Source: Caulochytrium protostelioides (taxonomy: Eukaryota > Chytridiomycota > Caulochytriomycetes > Caulochytriales > Caulochytriaceae). From it: DNA of 53,830 bases. A model generated the notes under the pieces. The model searched no databases and was not told the origin of the DNA. It was given only the letters and a program-made list of their open reading frames with translations. Positions 1-51,110 of this stretch are shown here, in pieces. The position numbers and the translations under genes are program-made. Positions within the stretch are counted from its first letter, which is position 1; each line of letters opens with the position of its first letter. Where the stretch lies: contig ML014238.1 of NCBI GenBank assembly GCA_003615045.1, positions 1 to 53,830 of the forward strand. The letters run 5' to 3'.

Positions 1-2
1 GG

Positions 3-236
3 GTGTATGCCCAGACGCATGCGGTCCTGAAACCCGGTCAGCGCCGGCGCCAGGGGACTGCGGTTCGTGGATTGCTATGGTAATAAGATAACCACAGCAA
101 GTGTGTGAATCGCGACCTTCATGCCGCGTTGAACCTCCGACGCTGCCTGACTGTACCCGTCAGACCGACAACGCTGTGCCGCAACTCTGGGCGAAATCTG
201 CTGCGGCCCAAGGTCGGCAAGCTCATCCGGAGATGA
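3..236 (+). pseudogene. Fanzor-like (TnpB/OrfB family) C-terminal remnant, copy A
   Basis: This is the C-terminal end of a Fanzor-like RNA-guided nuclease gene that begins left of the window. Codons 3-80 read VYAQTH..VLKPGQ..RGLLW, nearly the same as copy B at 12586-12665. Two in-frame stops (TAA 81-83, TAA 84-86) follow. The same frame then stays open for 49 more codons with the RuvC-III-like motif NRDLHAALNL (Asp codon 114-116), ending at TGA 234-236. The NRD.NAA..N signature is typical of OrfB/TnpB/Fanzor C-termini. The cysteines expected around it for a zinc ribbon are absent. I infer a dead or non-autonomous copy. The family call rests on motifs and on the fuller copy B, not on a search. 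Confidence 0.6.
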
Positions 237-290
237 ACCAAATGCGCTACTGCCTCCGTGGGGGCACCACGGAGGGGATGGCGAGCGCGG
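237..290 (+). mobile_element. Right end of Fanzor-like element copy A with 9-bp hairpin
   Basis: Sequence shared with copies B and C continues about 50 nt past the TGA and then stops matching near 287-290. It contains a perfect 9-bp inverted repeat, CCTCCGTGG (253-261) and CCACGGAGG (267-275), with loop GGGCA. The same hairpin, altered in sequence, is present after the coding remnant of copies B (12371-12416) and C (50016-50048). In TnpB and Fanzor systems the guide RNA scaffold overlaps the 3' end of the gene and the transposon right end, so this block is the place to look for one. The RNA role is inference. Confidence 0.5.
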
Positions 291-584
291 TAGGTAAGGT
301 TGAGCGAGCCGTTAAAAACAAATCTCTGTCGGAGACATCGCGAGCGTTCGGGAGGTGACACTTCGATGAGGCGACCCTTTGATCGCGGAGGCCAGCCGGG
401 AGGCGGCCGGGGTGGCGGTCCCGCCCCTCGAGCTGAACGCCACCGCCCCCGTCTCCCTATTGCCCAGAGCGACGGCGGCGCGCGTCAGCGCGACGGCACG
501 TCCATGAGGCGCGGGAAGGGCGTCGCCACTCGCCCTTGCGGCACCGTTCGATCGCGCCAGCGTTGTTGAACGCGGCGACAAGGG

Positions 585-4600: not shown

Positions 4601-5486
4601 GTCCCTGGTCCTGACCTCCGTTTTTGTTGCTCTTGGTCTCAGGCATCCTCGTTTTTCTCGTCGTTAATGACACATCGCCGTCACCCTCAACTTGTCGACG
4701 CTGCCCCCGACTGCTTCATTTCATTTGTTGTTTCACCGTTTCTGTTCTGTTCTGCCCTTTTCTGTTCTTCCCCGTCGCGCGCACGCGGACGTCTTGTCTC
4801 CGCATCCTGCTTCCCCCCATCAGCGTCGTTTTCGCCTTGGTATTGACCGTGTTCTCGCTTGGTGTTGACCGCACCTCGCTCTTCTCCTTTTGGCTGCCAC
4901 CCTTGATTGCGTAGACCGACATTGCTTACATTCCTCCTAGTTGCGCTTTGGCGGCATCTCTCCGAGCCGGATTTTCGCCTCGCACCTCCCGGGTGAAGCA
5001 GCGTTCTCCCGAGCGTACTTACGGGTGCATCGTTGGGTTTAATTTTTCTGCCACGTATACGTTCGTCTCTCGCACGTATCACACGCCTCCCACGTATACA
5101 CTCACGACCGTCGTTCTTCATACGCCGGCCTTGCTTATGGGGACCGCTGTGTGCCCCTCCCCCTCGCCTCCCGTTGTTGCATCCTCACCGACCCCAGACG
5201 TCCGACTCCCGTGGACTGCGCCACTCCACGGCCCCGCGCCATTGACCTGTCCACACCCTTGACGGTGCTTCTGAACCCCGGGGTTCCCGTCGCGCGGCGT
5301 CGCGTCGCGTGGCGTCGCGTCTCCACCGAGCCCGCGGGCCTTCGGATCAGTCGTGCTCATAGCCACGTTGCTCCTGTGGGCGCCACAACGCTGCCGGGTG
5401 CGTGGACGACGCCACGTGCTCGTGCGTATACCTCTGCGTCCGGCTCACTCTTGTCGTGACGGTGCGCGTATAAGTTCCAGATCGAC
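1606..5486. other. 3.9-kb region without a supportable gene
   Basis: Long open frames occur on both strands, the largest being 285 codons at 1621-2478 minus. All are Arg/Ala/Pro/Ser-rich with no recognisable domain, as expected by chance in GC-rich DNA. From about 2640 to 5470 the plus strand is visibly pyrimidine-rich, which would suit a very long leader or promoter for the gene at 5487. A short CGTCG-type tandem run lies near 5288-5320. No tRNA, transposon match or strong terminator was seen. Confidence 0.5.
5413..5418 (+). promoter_or_regulatory. CACGTG E-box 69-74 nt before the 5487 gene
   Basis: It is part of GCCACGTGCTCGTGC. The same 15-mer also precedes DPB2 (47311-47325), which extends the match beyond the six-base core. 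Confidence 0.4.
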
Positions 5487-49569: not shown

Positions 49570-49997
49570 GTAACTGCGTCACAATCCCATCGTTGATGGC
49601 ATGAGCCTTCTTATAACGCGATGTTCACGACAGGCCAGCTCACCGTGTCAACCTCGATATATCATATTGTCGGAAATGGTTTCGTCTTAAATGGAATGCT
49701 TAATCAGCCAAGTACAATTGTGAAACTCGTGACATCCCTTGGTGCCATTGTGGATGCCTTTTCCGAGCGCCGCTGTCGCGTACCGCGCAATCTTGACCAA
49801 GGACAGTCTTTGGTGAGATGAATCACAATTCAACGTCCAGCACGATGCGCTCGGTCACATTTTCTTGAAGAATGTGACCTCTGCTACGACCCATCATACA
49901 TGTTGCCCCACGTGGAGAACGCCGCCGTTCGAGACGTGACTGCTACGATGGCATTATTTTTGTTAAACGCGGTTGTATTTGCGGGCTTCCTGACACC
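49570..49997. other. DPB2 3' flank
   Basis: 428 nt of lower-GC sequence. Apart from the hairpin at 49853 and a possible small last exon of DPB2 near 49634, nothing recognisable is seen. Confidence 0.4.
49853..49879. other. 9-bp perfect hairpin downstream of DPB2
   Basis: GGTCACATT (49853-49861) and AATGTGACC (49871-49879) flank a nine-base spacer, with one further G-T and one A-T pair possible inside. It is in lower-GC DNA 284 nt after the DPB2 stop, just before the transposon debris. Confidence 0.4.
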
Positions 49998-50196
49998 TCA
50001 CGCTACGCACCATTCCCTCCGTGGTGCCCCCGTGGTCCCCCACCGAGGCAGTCACCCATTCGGTTCATGGTCGGATGAGCTTGCCGATCTCGGGCTGCAT
50101 CCCTGCTGAATAGCACGGCCACGTCAACCCTTCTACTGCGGATGCTGCCGCTATTAATAGCAACGCTCTCACCGATTTACATACGTTGTTGCCCAT

Positions 50197-50490: not shown

Positions 50491-50635
50491 TCAACAACGA
50501 CGTTGTCTACTGGCCGCGCATTTCATTCTAGCGACTCCGTGCCGTGCTATATCTGTGAGCACTGGCCGACGTCGTACCACAAGCCCTTGCACCAGCTGCC
50601 GCCCAGCGAGTGTCGCGGGTGTTAGCTTGAATGAC

Positions 50636-50985
50636 CACGACCTGCAGCTTGGTTTGCCGCACAACGCCGAAGACCTGATGAGCGCGGCCCGCAACGTATG
50701 TTCAGAGCGGTGAGGTCGTGGCTCACATAATTGCCGTTGATGGAATCATATCACAGCGAACCTGTGGCCACGAACTTCGTGCGCCGGCTCTTTTCAGGGA
50801 CCGATTGGTCTCTGCATATGTCTGGGTCGTGCGGAATGTGTCGACGAGGACGGTGTAGAATCGCTGGGCGCACGCCTTGTACGCCCGAGATGTTGGAACG
50901 GAGAGCCTGCCCGTGCCTGCTCTGCCGCCATGGCCCTGAGGGTCGCTTTGTTGAAGGTCGCTTCGGGGTCCTTCAGCACTCACGG
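50636..50985 (-). pseudogene. Fanzor-like nuclease remnant, copy C (RuvC-II and RuvC-III parts)
   Basis: The minus-strand frame 50983-50723 contains LSVPTSRAYKACAQRF and VLVDTFRTTQTYAETN. This aligns with copy B (ISVPADRLYKACAQRF, VLVDGFRTTRVHAETD). Downstream, INGNYVSHDLTALNIR corresponds to the RuvC-III block NNGKFVNRDLNAALNLR, and RSSALCGKP to RPIALCRNP. Where copies A and B have TGG TAA TAA, this copy has TGA TAT GAT, so the double TAA is not universal in the family. Frame changes and stops show that it is dead. Confidence 0.55.
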
Positions 50986-50987
50986 TC

Positions 50988-51110
50988 AGACCTCACGGGT
51001 CAGACCGACAGCGTTGTGCCCCATCCTGGGGCAAGCCCCACCGCTGCCCGCGGTCGGCAAGCTCATCCGGCGAAGAGCCTGTTGCGAACCGCCCTTGGGG
51101 GGCATCAGGT
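50988..51110 (+). mobile_element. Fanzor-like right-end fragment, copy D, inverted relative to copy C
   Basis: The plus-strand sequence GTCAGACCGACAGCGTTGTG then GGTCGGCAAGCTCATCCGG aligns with copy A 159-230, including the last coding codons. The right-end hairpin is degraded. It abuts the interior of copy C head to tail in opposite orientation, so the locus was rearranged. Confidence 0.6.

Follow-up and report, generated by a model that had tools for sequence, protein, structure and literature searches.

Does the short hairpin that follows the last codons of a decayed gene in Caulochytrium protostelioides belong to the scaffold of a guide RNA, or is it paired merely by descent? The DNA analysed here (the window, 53,830 nucleotides) is one entire contig of an assembly of 20.9 Mb in 337 contigs. 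Its GC content is 63.8%, its gene content is eukaryotic (cyclophilin; domains of DNA polymerase subunit B and of Med17), and Rfam gave zero matches across the window. A first-pass annotation had proposed a candidate guide-RNA scaffold from the position of the hairpin behind a TnpB/Fanzor-like gene, a compensatory change at its fifth base pair and a conserved block of sequence ahead of it. The position and, by profile, the Fanzor1 family held up; the compensatory change and the preceding block did not survive as evidence.

By profile, the gene before the hairpin belongs to the Fanzor1 family, and the element adds a member to this known family. Single-sequence queries with two proteins (P0001 and P0012) found no Fanzor. 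A search of 5.8 billion proteins recovered four distant relatives, to which P0001 ties the window family with an E value of 4.6e-27. Profile A1, built from two pieces of the genome's family and four relatives, matched the Parasitella parasitica Fanzor1 protein PpFz1 at E 1.1e-6, and a further profile match had E 3.2e-5. When the profile included the four distant relatives, 455 relatives were found among 8000 scored candidates. The profile made from 14 longer relatives matched PpFz1 at E 1.9e-16, SpuFz1 at E 2e-8 and, weakly, GtFz1 at E 0.009.

Among the 120 matches listed, many relatives are 545-616 amino acids long and others are shorter pieces; Fanzor1 proteins have a length of about 600-700 amino acids. 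The matches listed that carry a species name include proteins from Tetrabaena socialis and Chlamydomonas euryale, both green algae. The RuvC catalytic residues D366, E529 and D573 are invariant across the 14 relatives, and the RuvC motifs in the window's genome are scattered over different copies. Cas12f1-like_TNB scored above its cut-off in one of five relatives (P0088, 27.1 vs 26.3) and below it in all four others; it was absent from three of three pieces of the genome's copies, in which Pfam gave no match. In the window's genome, the longest open frame among the protein-level matches listed encodes 401 amino acids, and none of the copies seen there was both intact and full-length. Scans of viral contigs and genome contigs for relatives confirmed none.

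The window carries the following copies and parts of copies, named A to E.

2..333, + strand: copy A, a decayed Fanzor1 3' end with C-terminal coding sequence and 3' region, by profile match and translation; its upstream portion is on contig C192 (768/768 overlap)
234..236, + strand: Fanzor-frame stop codon TGA of copy A
237..295, + strand: extended-stem region of copy A, with outer arms 237-247/285-295 by family consensus
253-261 and 267-275, + strand: hairpin of copy A, CCTCCGTGG / CCACGGAGG, with a 5-nt loop
12303..13891, - strand: copy B, the window's longest Fanzor1 copy, with two in-frame TAA codons
12416-12408 and 12379-12371, - strand: hairpin of copy B, CTTCGGGGG / CCACCGAGG; stop codon at 12435-12433
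49955..50107, - strand: copy C, a 3'-end fragment whose family match starts at the last codons
50048-50040 and 50024-50016, - strand: hairpin of copy C, CCTCGGTGG / CCACGGAGG; stop codon at 50067-50065
50984..51107, + strand: copy D, a 3'-end fragment that keeps the coding block GGTCGGCAAGCTCATCCG and lacks the stop codon (TGA) and the arms
50624..50917, - strand: copy E, a more decayed fragment adjoining copy D, in profile pieces 50917-50794 and 50790-50624

These copies are decayed. Copy B has the RuvC-I motif NDPGRTNI and reads DGFRTT where its relatives read DEFRTT, so that the catalytic E is lost. The match of copy E stops short of the hairpin. The arm positions and strands that had been given for copies A, B and C agree with the sequence, and the hairpin does follow the gene's last codons, a stop codon lying just upstream of it in all three.

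Copies A and B and two copies elsewhere (L011 and L017) share TGGTAATAAGATAAC, with two stop codons at the same place; judged by eye, the other aligned copies mostly lack stop codons there. The copies with TGGTAATAAGATAAC perhaps form a subfamily that multiplied after the gene was broken. Positions 1-768 of the window repeat the final bases of contig C192 without a difference (768/768); the two contigs thus seem to join within copy A, of which the window shows only the 3' part. L011, at the start of contig C174, and L017, at the end of contig C248, are identical across the 234 bases compared, which is probably another assembly break within a Fanzor copy.

The Fanzor1 element is a degraded repeat. 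Allowing up to three mismatches, GGTCGGCAAGCTCATCCG had 615 matches in the genome compared with 33 for a reversed-pattern control, and the genome contains at least 183 protein-level matches to the family. Our sample comprised 41 matches (40 stretches) and 80 of 82 further places among 100 listed out of the 615, and it is biased toward copies that retain the 3' end, the 18-mer especially. The window itself (L010) and two of the 82 further places were left out, and the window row of copy A, identical to its C192 overlap, was dropped from the position-five counts. An element-end profile had 144 matches in the collected loci. Rows covering too few columns were excluded, which left 129 copies for the position-five counts, 125 for shuffles and slides, 126 for the tree-based null and the outer stem, 120 for per-copy energy, and 115 for hairpin-region energy and the tail hairpin.

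Folding of the family consensus after the stop codon predicted a single stem, imperfect and about 71 nt long, which encloses the annotated hairpin and is followed by a variable, A-rich tail. Along the profile, the TGA occupies columns 140-142, the outer arms 143-153 and 203-213, and the inner arms, which are the annotated hairpin, 159-167/185-193; the last column is 259. The distance from stop to element end is about 117 nt, and the hairpin lies some 66 columns from that end. The consensus is predicted to form nine inner pairs and ten outer ones: 10 of 11 outer-arm positions can pair, two of them as G-U, and part of the inner arms pairs one column off the annotated register. The loop differs in size, with 5 nt in copy A and 17 nt in the family consensus. 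In the minimum-energy fold of copy A the outer helix is shorter, joining 245-249 to 279-283, and in the fold of copy C the left arm pairs elsewhere. We sorted the tails by pattern into five classes and an unclassified rest. The outer arms are paired in the consensus of each, with T3 in a slightly different form, and in the minimum-energy fold of the T4 consensus another pairing replaces the inner hairpin.

The tails are A-rich, and the right end of the element is not sharp. Up to 14 of 115 tails (e.g. L046, L118, L068 and L022) carry a hairpin just ahead of the A-rich end, ACGAGC..GCTCGT or ATGAGC..GCTCAT. The left motif was found in 22 of the 115 tails and the right arm in 14 of those 22, a set in which L075 looks spurious by eye and L057 is mis-registered. 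Its variable pair is T-A in 10, C-G in 2, T-G in 1 and C-A in 1 (Fisher P = 0.09), so a two-sided change in this end hairpin is suggestive only.

The best explanation, which we consider somewhat probable, is that the stem is the scaffold of a Fanzor1 guide RNA (omega-RNA) and is now mostly a fossil. Rather unlikely, in our judgement, is that the stem plays no part as RNA. On this view it would be a GC-rich 3' untranslated stretch of an ancestor, and the copies would descend from few sources and keep an inherited pairing. Conservation bears on both. The mean majority-base frequency is 0.848 in the arms, 0.835 in the loop and 0.854 in the coding end, compared with 0.796 in the gap between stop and hairpin, 0.754 in the 22 columns past the hairpin and 0.666 in the tail. 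Arms and loop are thus conserved about as well as the coding end and better than the non-coding sequence on either side, which speaks against mere inheritance; that the loop is almost as conserved as the arms speaks for it.

The conserved block ahead of the hairpin does not bear on this choice. With variation, the in-frame reading before the stop is ...NGKFVNRDLNAALNIRRCLALPARP.ALCRNPGQ..L.P.(I/V)GKLIR(R/H)-stop, and GGTCGGCAA.CTCATCCG encodes VGK(L/V)IR or VGN(V)IR immediately upstream of the stop. Because the block is coding, its conservation is no evidence for an RNA, and the use first made of it fails: it is the coding sequence VGKLIR(R/H)-stop. It had also been described as conserved in all four copies, which is correct for copy D as far as GGTCGGCAAGCTCATCCG is concerned and does not extend to its TGA and arms.

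Pairing within the hairpin is not an accident of a single copy. Across its nine pairs in 125 copies, 82.3% were standard pairs, compared with 45-56% when the partner was slid by 1-3 columns, a control that favours any structure read off the same sequences. This excess over slid registers is a further point against inherited pairing without a role. The outer stem gave 74.1%, compared with 19-56% when slid, which tells against that explanation likewise; it hardly exceeded column shuffles, which averaged 73.1 (sd 0.51) and reached the observed value in 14 of 500. For the hairpin, column shuffles gave 80.3% paired (sd 0.55) and 20.7 cells changed on both sides (sd 3.4), and the observed 82.3% and 33 exceeded all 500 shuffles, an outcome in favour of covariation, from a control that ignores relatedness among the copies.

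We then compared the fifth pair across copies. The reading of C-G in copy A, G-G in copy C and G-C in copy B as a compensatory change with an intermediate did not withstand the larger sample. Among the 120 copies with both positions filled, G-G was commonest (40), followed by T-G (24), C-G (18) and G-C (18), with the rest mixed; Watson-Crick pairs numbered 37 compared with 32.2 expected under independent columns, and the two arms drift independently at this position. By tail class, G-C occurs in 10 of 11 T4 copies, G-G in 12 of 16 T2 copies, and C-G and T-G in 7 and 6 of 27 T1 copies. The three states first noticed are partly class states, and the mismatch is carried by whole classes.

To take account of relatedness, the substitutions in each column were redistributed on a tree of 126 copies, with 100 simulated alignments and 5460 column pairs. 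No pair was significant against this null, the best of all 5460 having an E value of 7.8. Hairpin pairs ranged from E 90 to E 5423, the sixth being best (rank 58, E 90), and position five ranked 5441 of 5460. Position five had 39 changes on the left and 18 on the right, and its failure is informative because changes there are ample. On either side of the other pairs there were 7-32 changes. With an sd of 5.37, compared with 4.56 for the data, the null is the broader of the two and hence conservative; power at these pairs is therefore limited. The second pair in class T4 (C-G 7, T-G 2 and T-A 2 of 11) is a possible small compensation, and it ranks 294 of 5460 across all copies. RNAalifold on the class alignments returned almost no structure, and was uninformative because these alignments included non-aligning flanks. 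Independent variation of each side at position five, together with the lack of any pair covarying beyond the tree-based null, favours inherited pairing. More generally, a "compensatory change" seen in three copies can lose its force once more than 100 are compared.

Folding energy is weak evidence and does not set the stem apart from coding DNA. The mean z per copy was -1.34 for the stem (120 copies), compared with -0.35 (115) and -1.21 (109) for coding stretches, and was -0.75 for the hairpin region alone (115 copies). The consensus had a z of -1.9, with 34 of 1000 shuffles equally good. Copy A had a z of -2.03; comparable values came from copy D, which lacks the arms (-2.01), and from a coding stretch of another locus, L111 (-2.46). 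Copy C, in which the hairpin is not formed at minimum energy, had -0.02. The likeness of the stem's z to that of a coding stretch, and the different folds of class T4 and copy C, again suit inherited pairing. Two of these results, the absence of the hairpin from the minimum-energy fold of T4, which is the class where G-C prevails at position five, and the equally good folding of coding DNA, led us to lower our estimate for the scaffold slightly and to raise that for inherited pairing by a similar step.

Considering family, position, conservation and consensus stem together, we infer how a scaffold may have worked. The hairpin would be the inner part of the imperfect stem that starts directly after the Fanzor1 stop codon. 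In active ancestors, the 3' region would have been transcribed as the scaffold of a Fanzor omega-RNA, and the protein would have held the stem on its RuvC/TNB side. Judged by where it lies and how it is shaped, the stem may correspond to the SL1-like part and the class-specific tail to the variable part. A short variable structure would thus follow the stem, after which the DNA adjoining the right end would supply the guide. Against the scaffold counts that the right end of the element is blurred and that no signal of inverted repeats or target duplications marks where the guide would begin.

Improbable, in our assessment, is a third explanation, in which the 3' region serves movement of the element as an end signal in its DNA or mRNA, such as a recognition structure for a transposase or reverse transcriptase. 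The tail is reached by 118 of 142 chained matches, and for 88 of the 118 a further 300 nt or more of upstream sequence was available. Six of the 88 start at the profile start; the other 82 start at various later points, of which 49 lie at 1000-1320 of 1449. These scattered starts suit an end signal, as do the A-rich tails, some of which finish in a further hairpin. Retrotranspositional truncation is only one reading, since copies with internal deletions and other 5' parts exist and also yield scattered starts. The shared 3' end, moreover, arises partly by construction because the loci were gathered by their 3' ends. Across 96 copies, target-site duplication gave no overall signal (own 6.08 vs swapped 5.99, sd 0.11); two of the 96 have a duplication-like match where one would be expected (15 bases in L020, which differ at two; 9 bases in L080), a point in favour of an end signal. 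Terminal inverted repeats gave no signal in 92 copies (own 6.91 vs swapped 7.01, sd 0.11), whose true 5' end was not reached. The tail was absent from the three reverse-transcriptase loci inspected among 19 matches, except for the Fanzor copy itself in one, and the annotated hairpin lies far from the element end; both count against the end signal.

In two places a Fanzor copy is preceded, on its own strand, by a reverse-transcriptase match. One match, on contig C145 (2892-3185), precedes a copy near 5450. The other, on contig C183 (L131, G000:C183:9200-12600), is a fragment that we take by eye to be Gypsy-type; it was considered as a mobility partner of Fanzor and set aside as a Gypsy-like chance neighbour.

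Finally, we regard as highly improbable that an omega-RNA-bearing 3' end spreads alone, its scaffold-region RNA being reverse-transcribed into the genome, as 3'-anchored, 5'-truncated copies without inverted repeats that acquire new flanking "guides" and no nuclease gene, an estimate that we lowered because the shared 3' end comes partly from the construction of the sample.

Returning to the guide-RNA scaffold, the stem occupies the position of an omega-RNA scaffold, which lies between the last codons of the nuclease and the right end of the element, here fuzzy. Compensatory change, a supporting and not strictly defining feature of such scaffolds, was not found. We class the stem as likely working like an omega-RNA and not as an omega-RNA proper, a name that we keep for a small RNA which extends beyond the right end into flanking DNA and binds the protein. 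Should it be a scaffold, hundreds of Fanzor1 copies with several tail classes would allow scaffold variants to be compared.

The site and approximate length of the stem roughly match those of known Fanzor1 guide-RNA scaffolds. The omega-RNA described for SpuFz1 of Spizellomyces punctatus measures 88-90 nt, lies downstream of the gene and consists of a 75-nt scaffold followed by a guide of 14-15 nt; the scaffold spans the right inverted repeat, 3' of the stop codon, and the omega-RNA of GtFz1 is described as overlapping the last 17 amino acids (PMC10432273). Like SpuFz1 as presented there, the window family is Fanzor1 by profile, has a structured stretch past the stop at the right end, and occupies many loci, some of them without a gene ("ghost" loci) (PMC10432273). 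Unlike SpuFz1, for which 30-nt inverted repeats and RNA data are reported (PMC10432273), our family is known from sequence, in decayed copies with uncertain 5' ends and no inverted-repeat signal.

Of the solved structures, PpFz1 comes closest by profile, and GtFz1 of Guillardia theta is a weak match (0.009). In the account of the solved complexes, each of the three Fz1 omega-RNAs has an SL1 of seven base pairs, which lies on RuvC/TNB and is followed by a variable part and then the guide (PMC11423790). PpFz1 and GtFz1 omega-RNAs have a first stem-loop, SL1, of seven pairs (PMC11423790), compared with the nine inner and ten outer pairs predicted for the consensus of the window family. A resemblance of another kind, alongside the green-algal origin of the named relatives, is to the green alga Auxenochlorella UTEX 250-A, whose most abundant repeat is described as a Fanzor-encoding "uncharacterized element" (PMC12633428). 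Its genome has 22.0 Mb and 63.9% GC (PMC12633428), compared with 20.9 Mb and, for the window, 63.8% GC here, and the two share, by description, an abundant Fanzor repeat.
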